A stretch of DNA of 64,000 bases, from NCBI GenBank assembly GCA_004791255.1, contig SRUQ01000009.1:1-64000 (forward strand), read 5' to 3'. Source of the DNA: a bacterium M00.F.Ca.ET.205.01.1.1 (lineage in GTDB: Bacteria; Pseudomonadota; Alphaproteobacteria; Rhizobiales; Rhizobiaceae). The notes beneath the pieces are model-generated. The model saw only the letters and a list, made by a program, of their open reading frames with translations. It did no database searches and had not been told where the DNA came from. Position numbers and translations under genes: made by a program. Shown in pieces: positions 185 to 51,349 of this stretch (positions within the stretch are counted from its first letter, which is position 1; each line of letters opens with the position of its first letter).

Positions 185-1510
185 TCAAGTCGGCGGCGTG
201 CCGTTCTCTGCCAGCACCGCGCCGGCGAGATAGAGCGAACCGCCGATCAGGATGCGTGGCGGTGGGCCGTCCCAGGTGTCGCGTAGCAGCATCAGCGCGC
301 TGGCGACGGAACTCATCGGCTCTGCAGTCAGCCCGGCTTCCGTCGCGCGAATCGCCAGCTCGTCGTTCGGCACGCCGGCATCGCTCAGGCTTACCGGGAC
401 CGTGTAGACGTGCCGGACAAGGCCCTTGAATGCGCGGAAATAGCCGCTCTGGTCCTTGGTGTTGATCATGCCGGCGATCAGGAACAGCGGCCTGGGGTTC
501 TTTTCTTCCTGTTCGGCCAGCGCTTCGGCCACGACCAGGCCGGCGCCTGGATTATGGCCGCCGTCGAGCCAGATGTCGGTGCCCTTTGGCGCCAGGTCCG
601 TCAGCCTGCCTTGCGACAGCTTCTGCATCCGTCCCGGCCAGGCGACAGCAGTCATTGCCTTTTCGACGGCGCGATGGCTGATCTCGAAGCCCGCCGCCTT
701 GACCGAGGCGATCGCCGCCGCCGCATTGGCGAACTGGTGGCGCCCGGGCAGTCTTGGCGGCGGCAGGTCCATCAGGCCGTCATCGTCCTGGTAGACCATG
801 CGGCCGTTTTCCTCGAAGGCGAGGAAGTCCTGGCCGTAGACGAGGGTCGGGCAGCCGAGCCGGTCGGCGGCATCGATCAGAACCTCGAGCGCCGTCTCGC
901 TTTCCTGCGCGCCGATGACGACCGGACAGCCGGGTTTCATGATGCCTGCCTTTTCGGCGGCGATCAGCTCGACGCGGTCGCCGAGATAGGCCTCATGGTC
1001 CATCGACACCGGCATGATCACCGAAACCGCCGGCTCCTTGATGACATTGGTGGCATCGAAACGGCCGCCAAGCCCCACCTCGATGACGGCCGCATCGGCA
1101 TGGTGTTCCGAAAACAACAGGAAGGTGACGGCGGTGAGGATCTCGAAGACGGTGATCGTCTCGCCTTCATTGGCATGGGCGACGCGGGCAATGGCATCGG
1201 CGAAGACATGATCGTCGACCAGCCTGCCGCCGCCATCGGCGGCGAGCCGGTAGCGTTCGTGCCAGTGCACCAGATGCGGCGAGGTGTGGACATGGACGCG
1301 GTAGTCGGCGGCCTCGAGCAGCGCACGTGAAAACGCCGCGCACGAGCCCTTGCCGTTGGTGCCGGCGATGTGGATCACCGGCGGCAGCCTGTCCTGCGGG
1401 TTGCCAAGCCGCCCCAGGAGCCGCGCGATGCGGTCGAGCGAAAGGTCGAAACCTTTCGGGTGAAGCGCCATCAGGGCTTCGATTTCGCGGTCGGCGGCAA
1501 GCGTGGTCAT
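185..1510 (-). CDS. folC: Bifunctional folylpolyglutamate synthase / dihydrofolate synthase
   Basis: FolC adds glutamate to dihydropteroate and to reduced folates using ATP, in the cytoplasm, in tetrahydrofolate synthesis. The 441-residue product has the Mur-ligase-fold signature: the ATP-binding P-loop HIAGTNGKGS at about residues 47-56, the HTSPHLVHWHERYR segment near 75-88, and the C-terminal ligase-domain motif WLDGGHNPGAG. Length is normal for the family. It is the last gene of the minus-strand trpF-trpB-trpA-accD-folC series, an order common in alphaproteobacteria, but is separated from accD by about 370 bp holding a palindromic repeat, so it may have its own transcript. A GAGGG sequence lies upstream of the ATG. 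Confidence 0.95.
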   Translation of the reverse strand: MTTLAADREIEALMALHPKGFDLSLDRIARLLGRLGNPQDRLPPVIHIAGTNGKGSCAAFSRALLEAADYRVHVHTSPHLVHWHERYRLAADGGGRLVDDHVFADAIARVAHANEGETITVFEILTAVTFLLFSEHHADAAVIEVGLGGRFDATNVIKEPAVSVIMPVSMDHEAYLGDRVELIAAEKAGIMKPGCPVVIGAQESETALEVLIDAADRLGCPTLVYGQDFLAFEENGRMVYQDDDGLMDLPPPRLPGRHQFANAAAAIASVKAAGFEISHRAVEKAMTAVAWPGRMQKLSQGRLTDLAPKGTDIWLDGGHNPGAGLVVAEALAEQEEKNPRPLFLIAGMINTKDQSGYFRAFKGLVRHVYTVPVSLSDAGVPNDELAIRATEAGLTAEPMSSVASALMLLRDTWDGPPPRILIGGSLYLAGAVLAENGTPPT

Positions 1511-42563: not shown

Positions 42564-44039
42564 TCAGCGGAGCGGCGAAAACGCTGCCGAGATCAGCGCG
42601 AACGGCAGCGCGCCATAGGTGGCGATGGTCGCGTCGTCGTGCCATTGCCGGAATTGCCGCGATGGCCGCGCTTCCAGCATCAAGGCCTGGCCGTCGCCGT
42701 TCAGCGTCACCTTGCCGCGAAAATGCAGCACCCGCTCCTTGCCGGACCGGCTGATGGCCATCGCACGCAGGCGCGCGACATGGTCCTCGCCGGCATTGAT
42801 CTCCATCTCGATACGACGCCGGACCGACGGAACGCCGATCCTGACGATGACATCCAGCATCATCTCTCCGCTCGTCGACGGACAGGGGATGGATTGAGAA
42901 AACACCGGCGGTGCGTTCGTTTTCGGCGGCTTGCCGGCGGCCTTCCGGCCGCGCCAGGCCCTGGCCGGCGGCTCCTGCTGCAGCCGGCCGCTCTTCCGCT
43001 TCAGCCGCAACTGCTTGGCAAGGCCGCGCGACAGCCAGACTAGCCTGCCGAAATCCGTGCGCGGCTTTGCCTGCAGCACCGATGACCAGCGCGAAAGGCC
43101 GGTGCGATCGGCCATCGCCACCACCTCAGCGAGGGCCGCCTCGGGCACTGCAACGCCGATCTCCCGTACCAGGTAGGAGAGCGCCACGGCCGCGGCCACC
43201 GCAAGGCCGCGCCGGGCGACGACATCGAGGAACACATCCCAGTCGACATCGCCGCCGCGGATCGCAACTGCGCAGTCGACCAGCCAGTCGCTGTGCGTGT
43301 GGGCGTCGAGGCCGCCATGCGCGATGGCCAGAGCCATGCGATCGGCGGCGCAGGGCACCACCACGCCGACATCGCTGAATTCGGCGGCCAATGCCCGATG
43401 CCAGATCGCCAGATCGTCTTCGGCGCTCCGCTGCGACCCGTCATAGGCGAGCTGGTGCAGGTCGATGTCGCCAAAATTCCCCTTGAAGAAATTCATCGAG
43501 CGCAGCGATGCCAGCCTTGTCCGCAAATATTGCGGGCTGACGCCGGTGGCGATCTGCCATTCCCGCTCGCGCAGCACGTCGAAGGCGGTCCGCATGTCCC
43601 GCGGCTGCACCAGTATATCGATGTCGTGCGCCACCCGGCCACGCTGCGCCGAGGCGTTTACCGCGACGCGGCTGGCACCCTTGACCACCATAACCGCTAC
43701 GCCGGCATCGACCATCGCCAGCAGCGCCGGTTCGGCCTCGCGCATCGCCATCCGCGACTTGGTCCACAACATCTTCTGAAGGCCAATCAGGCGCGGAAAG
43801 GCGGAATGGTCCGAGAGTTTGCGGCCGAACCGGTCAGAGATCGCCGCGAGCAGCCGGTGTTCCCGGAACGAGACGTGGTCGATGTCGTTTTCGTCCAGCC
43901 AGCCTGCCGCGTGGGCGCGGGCGGCACCTTCATCGGAGAGCAGAACGGCCTTGAGCAGTTGATCGAGCCCGCCGGTCGGCCAGGACCAGCCATAGTCCGG
44001 AAACCGTCGGCCGATCGGGCGGGTTTTCACGGCGGTCAA
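42564..44039 (-). CDS. NTP_transf_5-type nucleotidyltransferase
   Basis: The 491-residue protein carries a nucleotidyltransferase core: VMVVKGASRVAVNASAQRGR (about 117-135), the metal-binding HDIDILVQPRD with Asp139 and Asp141, and a later GDIDLHQLAYD (about 200). This matches the PF14907 (NTP_transf_5) family found with glycosyltransferases and RiPP genes. A long helical C-terminal half (about 280-491) is unassigned, ending in a beta-rich region (IEMEINAGEDHVARLRAMAI). The start is a TTG at 44039 overlapping the TGA of the upstream glycosyltransferase; a GTG at 44030 is the alternative. Last gene of the six-gene operon. Confidence 0.8.
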   Translation of the reverse strand: MTAVKTRPIGRRFPDYGWSWPTGGLDQLLKAVLLSDEGAARAHAAGWLDENDIDHVSFREHRLLAAISDRFGRKLSDHSAFPRLIGLQKMLWTKSRMAMREAEPALLAMVDAGVAVMVVKGASRVAVNASAQRGRVAHDIDILVQPRDMRTAFDVLREREWQIATGVSPQYLRTRLASLRSMNFFKGNFGDIDLHQLAYDGSQRSAEDDLAIWHRALAAEFSDVGVVVPCAADRMALAIAHGGLDAHTHSDWLVDCAVAIRGGDVDWDVFLDVVARRGLAVAAAVALSYLVREIGVAVPEAALAEVVAMADRTGLSRWSSVLQAKPRTDFGRLVWLSRGLAKQLRLKRKSGRLQQEPPARAWRGRKAAGKPPKTNAPPVFSQSIPCPSTSGEMMLDVIVRIGVPSVRRRIEMEINAGEDHVARLRAMAISRSGKERVLHFRGKVTLNGDGQALMLEARPSRQFRQWHDDATIATYGALPFALISAAFSPLR

Positions 44040-44713
44040 TTCGGCCCCGCTCTGTTGCGTGCCCGCCGCTGCATGGCGAGCCTTGCCACTTCGAGGTAAC
44101 CGCGGTCGCGCTGGGGATCACGGCCATAGGAGAGACTGCCGGGCCGGATACGCCGCAGCGCCAGCACCTCATCGATCATCGCAAGGACAAGACCTGCTTC
44201 ACGCACCCGGGCAATCCAGTCGATCATCTCGCCGCGCCCACCTTGCGGATCGACAATCGCGCCTGCGGTTTCGACCACGCCCCGGCGTACCATCATCGTC
44301 GTGCGCGACCAGCCGGGCACACCGGCTGCTTCGGGCAAGCTGGAGCTGTCTCCTCGAAACGTCCGCCAATGCGTGAAGACCCCGGCCGTTTCAGGATGGC
44401 GATCAAGGAAGGCAAGCTGTTTTTCGATCTTGCCAGGCAGCCAGAGGTCGTCGGCGTCGAGCGTGGCGACAAACGGGGTCGTGAGCGCGGCAAAGCCTCT
44501 GGTGGTGGCAGTGCCGGGGCCGGCATTTTCCTGTTGCAGTATCGTTACCGGCAACCGCATTGCGGTGATGGCCGCAACAGTACCGTCGGTGGAACCATCG
44601 TCGACGACGACAATGATTTCCGGCTTGACCGTCTGGGCCAAAACGGAGTTCAGCGTCTCGCCGATGGTGGCGGCAGCATTGAAGGCTGGAATGACAACGC
44701 CGTAGCCTGCCAT
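44036..44713 (-). CDS. Family 2 glycosyltransferase (short)
   Basis: The 225-residue GT-A protein (MAGYGVVIPAFNAAATIGET) has the nucleotide-binding VVDDGSTDGTVAAITAMR (about 36-53) and DADDLWLPGKIEKQLAF with the DAD/D metal motif (about 91-107). No membrane segment is seen, so it is probably cytoplasmic. The ATG at 44713 overlaps the previous stop (TGATG). It follows two longer paralogous glycosyltransferases, but is less similar to them than they are to each other. Donor and acceptor unknown. Confidence 0.85.
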   Translation of the reverse strand: MAGYGVVIPAFNAAATIGETLNSVLAQTVKPEIIVVVDDGSTDGTVAAITAMRLPVTILQQENAGPGTATTRGFAALTTPFVATLDADDLWLPGKIEKQLAFLDRHPETAGVFTHWRTFRGDSSSLPEAAGVPGWSRTTMMVRRGVVETAGAIVDPQGGRGEMIDWIARVREAGLVLAMIDEVLALRRIRPGSLSYGRDPQRDRGYLEVARLAMQRRARNRAGPN

Positions 44714-45465
44714 CAAAGAAAACGCCACTGCGCGAGATCCTTGAAGTCGAATATCCCCTCGACCCGGCGCAAGCTGGGGTCGGCCTTGTGGCGCTTCATC
44801 GATTTGTGGATGGCGCGCATGAACTCGCGAAAGGGCACATCAGCTTCCTTGGTCATGTTGCCGGGATGACGCCTGTAATAGAGAGCGACTGTATCGGGCA
44901 TAATGTATCTTGTGCCGCTCTCAAAGACCCGCAGCAGGTAGTCCGTGTCCTCAGCTTGCTTGAAGTCCTCATCGAAAGCGCCGATGCGGTCGACAAGGGT
45001 ACGGGCGAAGATTCCGGCGGACAGGTGGATACCGCGCACGGTGATTGAGTGACTGTCAGCCGCCGGTTCCAGTGTCTCGTCATCCAGCCTGTCGACCAGC
45101 GTCATGCGCGAATACGTCAATTCGAGACTTGGATCTTTTTCGAAACGGACGAGATCGGCCTCGAAGCGACCGGCTGGAGAGATGTCGTCGGAATCGAGGA
45201 ATGACACCAGCCGTGTTTGTGGCAGCAATTGCCTTAGCCCGGCATTGCGCGCTTTGGTGACCCCGCCATTGGGCTGCTGGAAAAGACGAATGCATGGAGC
45301 TTCGCTGGCCAACGAGCGTACGACGGCAGCCGTGCTGTCGGTCGACCCGTCGTCGATGACGATAATGTCGAGGTCGGCGGTTGTGCTTTGCCTGAGCAGC
45401 GAACGCAGGGCCGCGCCGACAAAGGCCTCGCGGTTGTGGACCGGCATGATCACGCTCAGCCTCAT
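44713..45465 (-). CDS. Family 2 glycosyltransferase, paralogue B
   Basis: The 250-residue protein (MRLSVIMPVHNREAFVGAAL) has the GT2 features IIVIDDGSTDSTAAVVRSL (about 33-51), KARNAGLRQLLP and FLDSDDISPAGRFEADL with the metal-binding SDD (about 93-109). The C-terminal EDTDYLLRVFESGTRY and YYRRHPGNMTKEAD segments are typical of the domain. It is collinear over its whole length with the next gene (45491-46243), indicating tandem duplication. GGAG precedes the ATG. Confidence 0.88.
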   Translation of the reverse strand: MRLSVIMPVHNREAFVGAALRSLLRQSTTADLDIIVIDDGSTDSTAAVVRSLASEAPCIRLFQQPNGGVTKARNAGLRQLLPQTRLVSFLDSDDISPAGRFEADLVRFEKDPSLELTYSRMTLVDRLDDETLEPAADSHSITVRGIHLSAGIFARTLVDRIGAFDEDFKQAEDTDYLLRVFESGTRYIMPDTVALYYRRHPGNMTKEADVPFREFMRAIHKSMKRHKADPSLRRVEGIFDFKDLAQWRFL

Positions 45466-45490
45466 AGGCAGCTCCAAGGCCGTTCACGCA

Positions 45491-46243
45491 TCACATCATC
45501 TGCCAGTTGGCGGGGCTCTTCAGTTCGAAAATGCCCTGGACCTCGCGCAGCGATGGATCCGCCTTGCGTCGTCGCATCGCCTTGTGAATTGCACGCAAAT
45601 GGTTGCGCAGCCTGCCGCTATGCTCCTTGGTGACATTTCCGGCGTGGCGACGGTAGTAGATCGCAATGGTATCCAGCAACAGGTAGCTCGGGCCAGTCTC
45701 GAAAACGCGAAGCAGATAGTCGGTGTCTTCGGCTTGCTCGAACTCCTCGTCGAACCGGCCCGTTCGCTCGATGAGCTCTCTTCTGAACACCGCCGCACTC
45801 AGCGAAATTCCACGAAGCGTCATGGTGTGGCTGTCGCTTGCGGGCTCCAGTGTTTCATCATCAATCCGGTCGGCCAGCGTCATCAGCGAATAGGTCAACT
45901 CGAGGCCGGGGTCGGCCGTGAAATGCGCAAGGTCGGTCTTGAAGCGCCCGGCCAACGAGATGTCGTCGGAATCCAGGAAAGAAACAAAATCGCAGTCCGG
46001 CGGCAATTGCCGCAGCCCGGCATTGCGTGCCTTGGCGACACCCATATTGGATTGGTGGAACAGGCGGATGCAAGCGCTCTCGTCCATGATGGAGCGCATC
46101 GCTTCGGCCGAGCCGTCGGTCGAGCCGTCATCGATGACGATGATATCGAGATCGGCGGCGTCGCGCTGCTGTACCAGCGACCGCAATGCCGAAACGACAT
46201 AGCGTTCGCGGTTGTAGACGGGCATGATCACGCTCAATTTCAC
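45491..46243 (-). CDS. Family 2 glycosyltransferase, paralogue A
   Basis: The 250-residue protein (MKLSVIMPVYNRERYVVSAL) has IIVIDDGSTDGSAEAMRSI, KARNAGLRQLPPD, FLDSDDISLAGRFKTDL and EDTDYLLRVFETGPSY, aligning throughout with paralogue B, including the identical ADPSLR...GIF end region. A GT-A glycosyltransferase, probably cytoplasmic. Its ATG overlaps the stop of the kinase-like gene by 4 bp (ATGA), so the two are translationally coupled. Confidence 0.88.
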   Translation of the reverse strand: MKLSVIMPVYNRERYVVSALRSLVQQRDAADLDIIVIDDGSTDGSAEAMRSIMDESACIRLFHQSNMGVAKARNAGLRQLPPDCDFVSFLDSDDISLAGRFKTDLAHFTADPGLELTYSLMTLADRIDDETLEPASDSHTMTLRGISLSAAVFRRELIERTGRFDEEFEQAEDTDYLLRVFETGPSYLLLDTIAIYYRRHAGNVTKEHSGRLRNHLRAIHKAMRRRKADPSLREVQGIFELKSPANWQMM

Positions 46244-47289
46244 GAAATGCCCCGTGCGAGGAAATTCGAAATCGTACCGGCGATCTCCTCAGGGTCGGTC
46301 CCCAGGGACAGCCGGTAGCATGGCAGCAGTCGAGTGAGTTCGCCAAACAGACGGAAGCCGCTCTCACGCTCGCCGGGCATCTGCATGATGCCCGATGGTG
46401 CAAGCGCCAGCATGGCGTCCCGGCGAGAAGCCGGCACGATTGAACTTGTCTCGCTGCCGCTGATATGTGGCACCATCAACGCAATGATGTCCAGAGTTGC
46501 AGGCACCGGCCGAGGCGCGATATCGGCAATGTGAAAAGTATGCTTGCCCTGCCAGTTGAGCGGCCCATGCTGCCTGAGCCGCTGCTGCAGCCCCAGCCGC
46601 GCGAAGCCTTGCGGGTCCTGCTTCAGCGTTGAAAACAGCGGTCGTGCGGTCACGCCCCTCTCAAGGTCGACCAGCACATAATCGTCGCCGACGCTGTCCA
46701 GGCCGTTGAGCAGCCCGGATGCCACCGTTCCCGACTTTCCGGCCCCACCCGAGCCGGCCAGCAGGATGCCCTTGCCGTCGAGGCCAAGCGTCCCGGCATG
46801 GGCAAGCCGCATGCCGCGCGCCGCATATTCCCAGTGCAGGAAGGGGCGCAGCGGCGCCGCCGGCTCCCATGGCGGGAAAGCGTTGGCCGCGGTCATCAGT
46901 TGCACACCGACCCGGTGCTGCGGATCGTAGAACTGCCAGAAATCGAGATCGTGGTAGAAATGGCCGCGCAATCCGGCCTCAGCCAAACGCGTCGCAAAAC
47001 CATGTTCGGTGTAGTGCGCGTCACCCCACTGCGCCGGGATGGGGATCGTGTCGATGCCCGGGTGAGCGACGAAAATCCGGGAGCCGGCTGTTTCAGCCTC
47101 ATCATTGCCGGCTTCGACATAGGCATGGCCGAGGGCGTCCGCCAGCGCGCCGGGGCTGAGATGGACGGTGAGTTCCAGTCGAGGCAAGCGCGACTTGTGC
47201 GTAACCGGAAACTTCGCGGCCGCGCTTTCCGCGGTGGTGATGAGATAGCGGGCGTAGTCTGGCAGGGTTTGGAGTGTGACGCGCGGCAT
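46240..47289 (-). CDS. HPr-kinase/phosphorylase-like ATPase
   Basis: The 349-residue protein has a P-loop GSGGAGKSGT (179-188; Lys185, Ser186) and the following GDDYVLVDLE (about 201-210), the order and spacing of HPr kinase-type proteins, which phosphorylate a Ser side chain. The N-terminal ~165 residues (MPRVTLQTLPDYARYLITTA) are not like canonical HPrK; the family is known to occur with PqqD-like genes. In RiPP clusters such kinases phosphorylate the peptide. Here no peptide gene is visible, so the target is unknown. It lies 41 bp after the PqqD-like gene. Confidence 0.8.
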   Translation of the reverse strand: MPRVTLQTLPDYARYLITTAESAAAKFPVTHKSRLPRLELTVHLSPGALADALGHAYVEAGNDEAETAGSRIFVAHPGIDTIPIPAQWGDAHYTEHGFATRLAEAGLRGHFYHDLDFWQFYDPQHRVGVQLMTAANAFPPWEPAAPLRPFLHWEYAARGMRLAHAGTLGLDGKGILLAGSGGAGKSGTVASGLLNGLDSVGDDYVLVDLERGVTARPLFSTLKQDPQGFARLGLQQRLRQHGPLNWQGKHTFHIADIAPRPVPATLDIIALMVPHISGSETSSIVPASRRDAMLALAPSGIMQMPGERESGFRLFGELTRLLPCYRLSLGTDPEEIAGTISNFLARGIS

Positions 47290-47330
47290 GGGCTGTCTCG
47301 GTGTCCAGTTGTCGCGCGGTGACCGGTCAA

Positions 47331-47747
47331 TCAGTTTGCCAGCTTGACCGCCGGCCAGCCGAGAGGCTCCTCGACCTCATGGATCGGGTCCACGACGATG
47401 AGATCGGCGAGATCGTCATGGGCTTCGACGACGAGCGGCTCGCGCGCGGCGGCAAGCTGCGAGAGTAGATCGACCGGAAGCGGGTTAGGCGCCGTGTCGG
47501 CGGGCGCGAGCAACCCGAAGTCGAGCAACCGTGCAATGAAGTTTGTCAGTTCCGCCGACGCTATCGCGCCGGTCTCGGCGAGCGCACCAGCGGAAACCCC
47601 CGACGAAAGCGCCTGCCACACTCCGCTGCCTGAATCGGAGAAGCCGAAATATTTTCCCGTCGAAAGATCGAGCACCACGGCTTCGCCGTCGAAGGACTCA
47701 AACACAATGTCCTTGCTCGCCACCGCGTAGACGTCGGGCTGACGCAT
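47331..47747 (-). CDS. PqqD-family (RRE) protein
   Basis: The 138-residue protein begins MRQPDVYAVASKDIVFESFD and has the PqqD pattern DGEAVVLDLSTGKYFGFSDS followed by GSGVWQALSSGV and a helical winged-helix end (about 15-90). PqqD-like RRE domains bind leader peptides in RiPP biosynthesis. The C-terminal ~50 residues are extra. The start is the ATG at 47747; an in-frame start 99 bases upstream would add a non-family segment. First gene of a six-gene, tightly packed minus-strand operon. Confidence 0.8.
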   Translation of the reverse strand: MRQPDVYAVASKDIVFESFDGEAVVLDLSTGKYFGFSDSGSGVWQALSSGVSAGALAETGAIASAELTNFIARLLDFGLLAPADTAPNPLPVDLLSQLAAAREPLVVEAHDDLADLIVVDPIHEVEEPLGWPAVKLAN

Positions 47748-47834
47748 TGTTCCTGGCCCCGCTCTGCGATCCAGTTGGCCACCGGCCGACCGTGGGATCG
47801 CTTGCCCCTTGGTAAGGGCTGTAAACACTCGATT

Positions 47835-47857
47835 CCGCCTTGGCAAGCCAAAGGCGG
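47835..47857 (-). terminator. Hairpin between gbcB and the PqqD-like gene
   Basis: CCGCCTTGGC (47835-47844) pairs with GCCAAAGGCGG (47847-47857) with one bulge and a 2-nt AA centre. It lies about 50 bp after the gbcB stop. No good T-run; termination is possible only. Confidence 0.4.
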
Positions 47858-49085: not shown

Positions 49086-50332
49086 TACGCGACGCTGCGC
49101 AGTGCCGGCCGGCCGCCTTCGGCCAGGCGTGGGCCGATGAAACGCGCATACCAGTCGACGAACTGGATGACACCGCCCTCATGCAGTTCGGAATAGGGGC
49201 CGGGCTCGTAGGCCGGCGACAGGATGCCGAAGGCATTTTCCTCGACGATGCGGCGGTCCTGGTCGTTGGTCTCGGTCCAGACATGGGTGAGTTCGGCGAG
49301 ATCGTAATCGACGCCCTCGACCGCGTCCTTGTGCACCAGCCATTTCGTCGTCACCGCCGTTTCGGTGGCGCTGACCGGCAGCACGCGGAAGGTCACCGCA
49401 TGGTCGATGAGGATGTGGTTCCAGGTCGTCGGGTAGTGATAGTGCATCAAGGTGCCGATGCGGTCGGCCGAAACGCTGTCGGACAGGTTCTTCGTCACCG
49501 CCAGCTTGCCGTTCATCGTATAGCTCTGGGCATCGCGCAGCAGCGGCGCGCGCGTGGCGCGGTACTGGCCTTCAGGGTCGATGCGGAACTTGCTCGGCAG
49601 GCCCGCCGCTTCGCATTTGGCCCAGTGCGCCAGCATTTCCGGATCGCTGTCGGCTCCCTGCACGCCGGTTACATTAGGCGCTTCCGGGAAGGTCTTGCAG
49701 AGCTCCGGATGATTGCCGGCGCAATGATAGCACTCGCGGTTGTTTTCCCAGACCAGCTTCCAGTTGCCCTTCTCGATGATCGTGCTCTCGAAGGCGATCT
49801 TGGCCTCGCTCAGCCGGTGCGGCTTGAGATAGGGCTCGATCATCGCCCGCATCGGCGCGAAGTCGGCAGGTTCTTTCGCCAGGCAGATGAAGATATAGCC
49901 GCCGACGCTCTCGCAGGCGACCGGCTTCAGGCCGAACTGGCTCTTGTCGAAACCCTCCGCCATCTGCCGGGCGAACAGCAGCCTGCCGTCGAGCTCGTAG
50001 GTCCATTGGTGGTAGGGGCAGACGAGCTTTGCCGCCAGGCCCTTGTCGGTGTTGCACACCCGGCTGCCGCGATGGCGGCAGGAATTGTGGAAGGCATTGA
50101 TGTTGCCTTTCTGGTCGCGCACCAGCACGACCGGATAGTCGCCGACCTGCACGGTGATGAAGCTGCCGGGCTTGGGCAATTCGCAATCATGGCCGATGAA
50201 CAGCCAGTCGCGGTACCAGATCAGCTCCATGTCGAGCTTGAAGAAATCGGGATCGGTGTAGAAGGGCTGCTCGAGGGAGAAACCGTCCCTGCGGCTTTGC
50301 AGCAGCCTCAGCATGTCGTTGCGCACATCCAT
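49085..50332 (-). CDS. gbcA: Glycine betaine monooxygenase, Rieske oxygenase subunit
   Basis: GbcA demethylates glycine betaine to dimethylglycine with release of formaldehyde. The 415-residue protein has the Rieske motif CRHRGSRVC...CPYH (Cys85, His87, Cys105, His108) and the mononuclear iron motif NRECYHCAGNHPEL (His203, His208), with the KWLVHKDAVEGVDYD and ETNDQDRRIVEENA strings known from GbcA of Pseudomonas. The start is the ATG at 50332 with GAGGACAGG upstream. A cobalamin riboswitch lies 129-308 bases before it. A related stachydrine or carnitine-type Rieske oxygenase is the alternative. Confidence 0.87.
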   Translation of the reverse strand: MDVRNDMLRLLQSRRDGFSLEQPFYTDPDFFKLDMELIWYRDWLFIGHDCELPKPGSFITVQVGDYPVVLVRDQKGNINAFHNSCRHRGSRVCNTDKGLAAKLVCPYHQWTYELDGRLLFARQMAEGFDKSQFGLKPVACESVGGYIFICLAKEPADFAPMRAMIEPYLKPHRLSEAKIAFESTIIEKGNWKLVWENNRECYHCAGNHPELCKTFPEAPNVTGVQGADSDPEMLAHWAKCEAAGLPSKFRIDPEGQYRATRAPLLRDAQSYTMNGKLAVTKNLSDSVSADRIGTLMHYHYPTTWNHILIDHAVTFRVLPVSATETAVTTKWLVHKDAVEGVDYDLAELTHVWTETNDQDRRIVEENAFGILSPAYEPGPYSELHEGGVIQFVDWYARFIGPRLAEGGRPALRSVA

Positions 50333-50460
50333 GTCCTGTCCTCACAGCCAAGGACTGAACTGGTGGTGATGGAGGAAGGATTGGACGCGGGGCGCGGCGA
50401 AAGCCGGACATGCGTCGTCCGCCTCTTGATCGCCCACCGCGATCAGTCGAGTTTCGATAG

Positions 50461-50640
50461 CTCGGGCTGGTTTCCGGGCTCTGGAGTTGTCCTTGCGGAC
50501 CATCGCGACACCTTCCCAGGCTTCTTGCCCAGTGGTCTCCCGTTGCGACTTCAAACTCCACCACCGTTGCGGGGGCAGCGCCGGATTCTGACCGGCTTCC
50601 CAATTCTCCGCCCCGTCGTCACGAAGCGGCACCTGAGATG
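50461..50640 (-). promoter_or_regulatory. Cobalamin (B12) riboswitch upstream of gbcA
   Basis: Read on the minus strand from 50637, the sequence has the ordered hallmarks of the cobalamin aptamer: CAGGTGCC, GGGGCGGAGAATTGGGAAGC, CCGGTCAGAATCCGGCGCTG, CCCCCGCAACGGTG, GAGACCACTGGGC, CCTGGGAAGG and AGCCCGGAAACCAGCC at the 3' end (about 50465). An open minus-strand frame covers the region, but the RNA motifs explain it better. The next gene on that strand is gbcA, 129 bases on. In the usual mode cobalamin binding would shut the downstream gene off; a GATCGC/GCGATC hairpin near 50430-50446 could be part of the expression platform. Confidence 0.92.
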
Positions 50641-51148
50641 ACACGATCTAATCATGGCAGGCGTCGCGGCATCGGTATGAAAACGACATCGCATGCCATG
50701 CGGCGCGACATGCATTTGAAACGCAGGCGTCGACGATTGCGGGATTGCAATCATCTCCAATTGCCGGCTGTGCCGGACGTCGGTTTTGACCCTTAGCCGG
50801 GGATAAAAAAACGGTAACAGTTTCGAAAAGTGACTATTAGCGGTTTCTAAAATCGAACCGAACGGTTCGTTTCTGTTGACGGTGCGTGCAGCACAGTGTG
50901 AACGCCGGGCCCCCGACACAGTTGGTGAACAGCCAGAGCGATTCATCTAAGCAGCTGATATTAAGAGCAAAAAAATAAGGTGTAGATGGCTTTGGCACAA
51001 TTTCAAGTGGCGGATTCATGGTCCACACGGAACAACTTCGTGATTGGAAATGGCCCTGCGTCTCTCCCACATCGGGGCAGTCCGAACGACGCGATTTCAT
51101 TCCCAAGACACGCCGCTAGACGGACGGAAAAATACTGGAGTACTAAAA
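50641..51148. other. Non-coding stretch between the riboswitch and the DUF680 genes
   Basis: No credible gene was found in these 508 bases. It should hold the promoter of the riboswitch-gbcA transcript (minus strand, near 50650-50750) and that of the first DUF680 gene (plus strand). It is AT-richer than its surroundings and contains the dyad at 50854-50869. Confidence 0.5.
50854..50869. promoter_or_regulatory. 16-bp dyad, operator candidate
   Basis: CGAACCG (50854-50860), AA, CGGTTCG (50863-50869) is a perfect 7-2-7 inverted repeat of the sort bound by TetR-type repressors. It lies about 280 bp before the first DUF680 gene and 200 bp before the riboswitch start. A TTGACG follows at 50877. 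Confidence 0.4.
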
Positions 51149-51349
51149 ATGAAAAAGATGGTTCTCACTGCCGCCGCCCTTCTGGCCATTTCCGGCAGCG
51201 CCTTCGCCAATGGCAGCGACCACTATGGTTCGGACGTCCCGGCGGCAACCGCTGTCGACAGCTCGCACACCGCTTCGGTCAAGAAGTCGGAACCGGCTGC
51301 TCAGACGCCTGCCCCGGGTGCCGACCGTAACCTCTTCGGCAACAACTAA
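51149..51349 (+). CDS. DUF680-type small secreted protein 1
   Basis: The 66-residue protein has a clean Sec signal peptide (MKKMVLTAAALLAISGSAFA, cleavage after AFA) and a mature part of about 46 residues, polar and without cysteines, ending DRNLFGNN. This is the DUF680 pattern I know from Mesorhizobium, where many paralogues occur; the function is unknown. CTGGAGT precedes the ATG. It is followed after 69 bp by a paralogue with the same ending. Confidence 0.75.
   Translation: MKKMVLTAAALLAISGSAFANGSDHYGSDVPAATAVDSSHTASVKKSEPAAQTPAPGADRNLFGNN

Follow-up and report, generated by a model that had tools for sequence, protein, structure and literature searches.

Some metabolic steps are served by pairs of B12-dependent and B12-independent enzymes, of which metE/metH and nrdAB/nrdJ are the textbook examples, and repression of the B12-free nrdAB by a cobalamin riboswitch is known. 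Repression of metE by a cobalamin riboswitch is known as well, and members of this riboswitch family form a kissing loop between L5 and L13 (PMC9600662). For betaine, an aerobic B12-dependent route, MtgBCD, has been described in Ruegeria pomeroyi, and S. meliloti encodes it too; members of the MttB family differ in their substrates (PMC12478193). Here we describe a cobalamin riboswitch directly before gbcAB-like genes in a stretch of 64,000 nucleotides, analysed as a whole and called the window below. In the open-licence full text of PMC, a scope that leaves subscription papers outside, we recognised no report of a cobalamin riboswitch before gbcA. We think it quite likely that this RF00174 riboswitch turns off gbcAB, as a B12-independent isozyme of the MtgB route, when B12 suffices. 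The proposal draws on computed features (the riboswitch itself, how widely it is kept before gbcA, its joint occurrence with MtgB, the neighbouring genes and a covarying P13 hairpin) and on an alternative pairing predicted in the leader.

The riboswitch and the genes that it precedes

The sequence-only reading had placed a cobalamin riboswitch on the minus strand at 50461-50640, with gbcA as the next gene, and had suggested a covariance-model search. The motifs that it quoted are present in that strand, and cmscan returned a match to RF00174 above the curated gathering threshold, covering the model at full length (positions 1-189); this is the sole gathering-level Rfam match of the whole window. 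The proposed place was right, with a small widening of the limits (Table 1). The next minus-strand ORF has GbcA as its best NCBIfam match and is followed by a GbcB-like ORF, as had been said. The aptamer ends 115 nt before the ATG of the gbcA-like gene. Within 50300-51200, no terminator-like site was found on the minus strand between aptamer and gene, and a transcriptional terminator was therefore rejected as the expression platform; one weak minus-strand site (50714-50690) lies upstream of the aptamer. The same interval shows no sigma-70-like promoter. The whole genome has five cobalamin riboswitches over the cut-off, the window copy included. The remaining four precede an ABC transporter (ATPase and substrate-binding protein, with a presumed role in B12 uptake), DUF1636-cobW followed by an ORF of cobN size, cbtA-cobU, and bluB. 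Divergent to the cbtA-cobU riboswitch lies a second Rieske oxygenase gene (contig C199, L124, 9351-10526).

Table 1. Positions of the riboswitch, leader elements and gbcAB-like genes in the window
Feature	Position	Strand	Evidence
Cobalamin riboswitch aptamer RF00174, complete	50448..50651	-	cmscan 102.4 bits, E 1.7e-24, gathering 31.5
P13-like hairpin TGATCGC-GGTGG-GCGATCA	50427..50445	-	Hairpin pattern in 60/60 riboswitch-bearing leaders
CCACC element, complementary to hairpin loop GGTGG	50362..50366	-	97.4% of cells paired, 39 leaders
TCAGTCCTT element, predicted to pair with GACTGA at the P13 foot or with the Shine-Dalgarno	50350..50358	-	Leader conservation and predicted Shine-Dalgarno hairpin
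Shine-Dalgarno-like GAGGAC before the ATG at 50332	50338..50343	-	Sequence and leader alignment
gbcA-like gene, Rieske oxygenase subunit, 415 aa	49085..50332	-	NF058607 521.8 bits (cut-off 670); Pfam Rieske and Ring_hydroxyl_A
gbcB-like gene, ferredoxin/FAD/NAD reductase subunit, 369 aa	47907..49016	-	NF058606 356.2 bits (cut-off 500); Pfam FAD_binding_6, NAD_binding_1, Fer2

The arrangement recurs in related genomes. Among 80 orthologous gbcA loci of named genomes, which are the best 80 of at least 592 confirmed relatives (69-95% protein identity), a regular-expression search found the aptamer core upstream of gbcA in 59, and cmscan agreed with that search at all 21 negative loci and at all 15 of the 59 positive loci that were scanned. 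A chance motif match was rejected on the cmscan score and this recurrence. The survey of same-genus gbcA homologues that had been proposed found the core at every one of the 30 best loci (L086-L115, a second collection that includes the window's own locus and repeats six named ones). An even sample of the class (385 genomes) contains 28 others with a GbcA-like match at 1e-90, seven of them with the riboswitch upstream, and in the phylum sample the riboswitch is present at 8 of the 26 newly fetched loci (L161-L186), a count that covers those given loci. It was found at none of nine phylum-sample loci from another class (L174, L177, L178 and L181-L186), probably the gammaproteobacteria, and at none of nine paralogue loci (L187-L195). 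At L182, a gbcA locus of that other class, a CrcZ sRNA lies nearby (818-1212, minus strand). The riboswitch before gbcAB is real and conserved, its family and logic are already known, and its aptamer would be expected to bind cobalamin.

The gbcA-like gene encodes Rieske and catalytic domains with a GbcB-type reductase adjacent, and both proteins score below the curated cut-offs of their models (Table 1). On NF058607, relatives score 795-806 (L181, L182 and L184), 631-651 (L140-L142) and 479 (the Stc2-like L188) bits. A GbcB match is present in 65 of the 80 loci; the 15 loci that lack it (L051, L055, L056, L066-L071, L075-L079 and L082) also lack both the riboswitch and MtgB. Downstream of gbcAB in the window, the minus strand at 42564-47846 carries in a row a gene with a weak PqqD-like match, one with a weak HprK-related match, three family-2 glycosyltransferase genes and one for an NTP_transf_5 protein, which look like a separate polysaccharide or modified-peptide cluster.

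These scores bear on the substrate. The same isozyme logic might serve another betaine, for example stachydrine, with an MttB-family partner for that substrate, a reading that we regard as rather unlikely. The window protein matches the structure 3vca, which we take to be Stc2 (stachydrine demethylase), strongly at 539.8 bits. In a 139-protein GbcA-like tree, which like our other trees is a quick one and which itself carries long-branch warnings, its clade stands apart from Stc2 and from L181-L186, the proteins of the other class to which it is 50-51% identical and of which those scanned (L181, L182 and L184) pass the GbcA cut-off; the known variety of substrates within the MttB family (PMC12478193) would also suit such a reading. 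Against it, Stc2 groups in the same tree with the same-genus paralogues L187-L189 (82% identity to L188) and not with the window protein, so that the tree does not support an identity of the latter with Stc2; moreover, the riboswitch-bearing L140-L142, scoring close to 670, share a supported group with L181-L186. Glycine betaine appears to be the likeliest substrate of the pair, another betaine being possible; in both cases the isozyme reading stands, provided that the MttB-family partner acts on the same compound. The original description of the two as glycine betaine demethylase genes is sound as to a GbcA-like pair and goes too far as to the substrate, since the protein falls short of 670 bits and its clade is separate both from the proteins that reach that score and from Stc2.

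Leader anatomy and the direction of switching

A hairpin with a GGNGG loop follows the aptamer in every riboswitch-bearing leader (60/60). Its loop could pair with CCCCC of the aptamer's L5, and by this complementarity the hairpin is a candidate P13 with an L13 able to kiss L5, as in other members of RF00174. In an alignment of 29 of the 60 leaders, chosen by us and comprising 19 distinct sequences, three of the seven pairs of the P13-like stem are changed on both sides, the covariation score exceeds that of all 500 shuffles, and 10 cells are changed on both sides against 3.6 in the shuffles; by the number of pairs changed on both sides (138 of 500) and the number of pair types (462 of 500), the same 29 leaders do not rise above the shuffles. 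When 39 of the 60 leaders were aligned, three blocks stood out: the hairpin at 97% conservation, CATCACCACCAGTTCAGTCCTT at 94% and the region of the Shine-Dalgarno at 93%. The linker is conserved at 64% and one loop at 51%, against 94% for leader positions 95-115. A second type of leader, for example that of L047, differs in the middle block and lacks the elements of the alternative helix.

The middle block can, by base complementarity, pair either with the foot and loop of the hairpin or with the Shine-Dalgarno, and the two pairings would be mutually exclusive. When B12 is ample, the ligand-bound aptamer would lock the P13 hairpin through the L5-L13 kissing loop, which would leave TCAGTCCTT free to cover the Shine-Dalgarno, and GbcAB would not be translated. 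When B12 is short, P13 would open, its foot GACTGA and loop GGTGG would take up TCAGTC and CCACC, and the Shine-Dalgarno would be freed. Across the 39 leaders the alternative helix showed no covariation, although its CCACC part stays paired (Table 1), and its length was matched by 215 of 2000 shuffles. Folding predicts the Shine-Dalgarno hairpin in the window leader, with the Shine-Dalgarno unpaired at 0.03 and the hairpin closed in both modelled states.

A switch of the opposite sense, in which B12 raises gbcAB expression, is very unlikely in our judgement. The direction cannot be read from the sequence with certainty, and folding did not open the window's Shine-Dalgarno, both of which leave such a switch some room; over the 60 leaders, by contrast, blocking P13 left the Shine-Dalgarno more accessible than forming it in 23, and the reverse held in 2, and the nrdAB and metE genes that neighbour some of these loci behind riboswitches of this family should be OFF with B12. 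On leader anatomy and neighbours, the direction, which the sequence-only reading had left undecided, is probably OFF with B12, and the switch would act on translation.

Three leaders (L019, L021 and L022) carry an insert of about 100 nt, beginning GGAGCGACGTGCGTCCA, between the anti-Shine-Dalgarno element (TCAGTCC) and the Shine-Dalgarno. The bluB riboswitch of the window genome (L005) has a similar stretch after its aptamer, and the insert looks like a mobile repeat that lands in riboswitch leaders.

Co-occurrence with a candidate MtgB route

The genome of the window has six MttB-family genes. In a comparison with 9yce, the solved structure of a glycine betaine methyltransferase, the product of one of them, L116, scored highest among five of the six copies (420.7 bits, against 357.4, 318.5, 305.6 and 283.1; L121 was left out). 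L116 divergently adjoins a gene for a B12-binding, MtgC-like protein, and next in its neighbourhood come genes for DUF1638, DUF4893, a formyltransferase domain, DUF5981, MTHFR, an MtgD-like pterin-binding protein and a RACo-type activator. By family, by being the closest copy compared and by these MtgC-, MtgD- and activator-like neighbours, L116 is classed as MtgB, a function that it would probably perform in this organism. Because the genome encodes this set, gbcAB looks to be the B12-independent isozyme of it, in the relation that metE has to metH. With B12 ample, betaine would be demethylated by the corrinoid route, in which MtgB would move a methyl group to the corrinoid protein MtgC and MtgD would pass it on to tetrahydrofolate; with B12 short, derepressed GbcAB, an O2-dependent Rieske monooxygenase, would perform the first demethylation and release formaldehyde.

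The distribution of the two traits is consistent with this proposal. Throughout, a match of at least 60% identity was scored as MtgB; in the class sample, G530 and G453 at 55-56% and G235 at 42% therefore count as lacking it. A search with L116 of the 79 genomes behind the 80 loci found MtgB in all 58 genomes with riboswitch-gbcA and in 1 of the 21 without. Counting this first sample together with the window, 59 have both traits, none the riboswitch alone, one MtgB alone and 20 neither; the 20 MtgB-less genomes have no match to L116 at 1e-100. With the class and phylum samples added, the corresponding numbers over 126 distinct gbcA-like rows are 73, 0, 11 and 42, so that MtgB accompanies each of the 73 distinct riboswitch-bearing rows. 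These were reduced from a raw 74, 0, 11 and 43 by counting once the two genomes that had been sampled twice (L162 with L023, and L165 with L067). Six class-sample loci with neither riboswitch nor MtgB match (L145, L149 and L151-L154) lie outside the 126 rows and would bring the last class to 48 instead of 42; L048, which has the riboswitch, enters no MtgB count, the same-genus loci L086-L115 enter only through the window's own, and the nine paralogue loci and a second locus of G219 (L160) were left out.

In the sampled genomes the riboswitch is never seen without MtgB, and MtgB occurs without the riboswitch. MtgB together with a gbcA-like gene that lacks the riboswitch was found at L061, L135, L139, L148, L155, L157-L159, L175, L176 and L183, among which L148, L155 and L157-L159 are homologues of 40-48% identity; the paralogue loci L187-L190, L194 and L195 likewise lack the riboswitch in genomes with MtgB. 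At L061 (Ciceribacter lividus), the gbcA leader shares no clear similarity with its counterpart in L054 beyond the final bases near the Shine-Dalgarno. The idea that gbcA lacks the riboswitch where B12 regulation has been lost is not supported, since all 21 first-sample genomes of this kind carry cobalamin riboswitches elsewhere (2-7 over the cut-off).

Shared ancestry inflates these co-occurrence counts, and Fisher values overstate the evidence because many strains are related. The first tree has two changes of MtgB and three of the riboswitch; the GbcA-like tree, with 128 rows, has 9 and 13 changes of the two traits. An independent-pairs test on the latter gave seven supported contrasts, most often five of them concordant (range 2-6 over 200 pairings) and none opposed, and the tree-corrected association was not significant (median p 0.0625).

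Neighbouring genes and comparison with known systems

In part of the genomes, gbcAB accompanies riboswitch-controlled B12-free isozymes and B12 uptake genes. In L036 (Mesorhizobium sp. J18; proteins identified by NCBIfam) one RF00174 match stands before nrdA-nrdB, another before gbcAB and one more, on the opposite strand, before metE, so that gbcAB lies between riboswitch-nrdAB and riboswitch-metE. L038 has the same three matches, with genes assigned by clustering with those of L036; also by clustering, L037 has riboswitch-nrdA and riboswitch-gbcAB, and L041 has nrdAB beside riboswitch-gbcAB. In L042 a btuB-like gene (277 bits, under its cut-off) lies behind a divergent riboswitch, and a formaldehyde dehydrogenase gene follows gbcAB. 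A second, divergent cobalamin riboswitch also stands back to back with that of gbcA in L134 (3170-3380, plus strand) and L170 (3141-3334, plus strand). Most of the 59 riboswitch-bearing loci have no such neighbours within 6 kb. The sequence-only reading had set a betaine demethylase outside the usual targets of B12 riboswitches. It was correct about where the riboswitch stands; the MtgB counts of the first sample and the layout of L036 and L038 put the gene inside the isozyme class of those targets.

Such neighbours could also have been the source of the riboswitch, captured from an nrdAB, metE or btuB leader and left without a role for gbcAB. Their presence in some genomes is what speaks for this, and we consider it highly improbable: the riboswitch is kept in 59 of the best 80 of at least 592 relatives across 69-95% protein identity, it occurs also at loci that show no such genes within 6 kb, the stretch after the gbcA aptamer differs from the nrdAB and metE leaders that were read, and three leader blocks are conserved at 93-97% in 39 leaders.

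A link to methionine and one-carbon metabolism had been the original guess. Stated as an alternative, low B12 would stall MetH, and GbcAB would supply formaldehyde-derived C1 units or adjust betaine as methyl donor, independently of MtgB. We judge this improbable, even though metH lies upstream of gbcAB in L027 and L029 (by clustering, named from the L063 protein), metE lies next door in L036 and, by clustering, in L038, and bacteria of this kind couple betaine to methionine (PMC12478193). The riboswitch tracks MtgB and not MetE: MetE is present in 19 of 59 genomes with the riboswitch and in 3 of 21 without (Fisher p 0.16), and a MetE link was rejected for want of association. MetE was coded present at E < 1e-100 (22 of 80 genomes; 28 of 80 at 1e-30). 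The nrdAB neighbours, too, are unrelated to methionine. Class Ia NrdB occurs in 11 of 59 riboswitch-bearing genomes and in 0 of 21 others (p 0.058), a link that marks only a subset.

To the isozyme reading we add, tentatively and at somewhat less than even confidence, that the purpose of the switch is B12 sparing, in which the bulk of betaine breakdown would be shifted to a B12-free enzyme and scarce B12 would be kept for essential enzymes that nothing can replace. Searches of the window genome gave no match to MetE and, at 1e-40, none to class Ia NrdB, and 34 of the 59 riboswitch-bearing genomes (the window's and 33 of the other 58) have neither MetE (E < 1e-100) nor class Ia NrdB. In those 34, gbcAB may be the only B12 bypass of its kind. 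If they have no other B12-free ribonucleotide reductase, derepressed gbcAB alone could not rescue them from a total lack of B12, which suggests that B12 is saved for other enzymes. Were sparing its purpose, the riboswitch would ration a cofactor between catabolism and essential synthesis.

The isozyme reading would account for the presence, in a single genome, of two unrelated enzymes for the same step. It would add gbcAB/MtgB, newly recognised as a pair within the scope of open-licence PMC full text, to the B12-dependent and B12-independent enzyme pairs as a further, catabolic one, and it predicts that the chemistry of betaine breakdown, methyl transfer to folate or O2-dependent release of formaldehyde, switches with the supply of B12 in rhizobia and some other alphaproteobacteria.

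Compared with the GbcAB monooxygenase, the locus encodes the same kind of two-component Rieske system, with NF058607 and NF058606 as the best NCBIfam models for the two genes; it differs in that the window protein reaches 522 of 670 bits and in that the GbcA-like L181-L186 have no riboswitch. The MtgBCD route of Ruegeria pomeroyi resembles the proposed B12-dependent counterpart, for which the window genome has MtgB-, MtgC- and MtgD-like genes. In contrast, PMC12478193, in its available part, assigns GbcAB and MtgBCD to different bacteria and names no B12 regulation of gbcAB. Riboswitch-metE shares the aptamer family and the proposed repression of a B12-free isozyme, and in L036 and, by clustering, L038 it lies beside gbcAB; the target here is instead a catabolic, O2-dependent Rieske oxygenase whose partner would be a corrinoid methyltransferase, and the post-aptamer stretch differs. 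In riboswitch-nrdAB (class Ia), likewise, an O2-dependent, B12-free enzyme replaces a B12 enzyme; it neighbours gbcAB in L036 and, as judged by clustering, also in L037 and L038. nrdAB, however, serves the essential synthesis of DNA precursors, whereas gbcAB would serve the breakdown of a nutrient.
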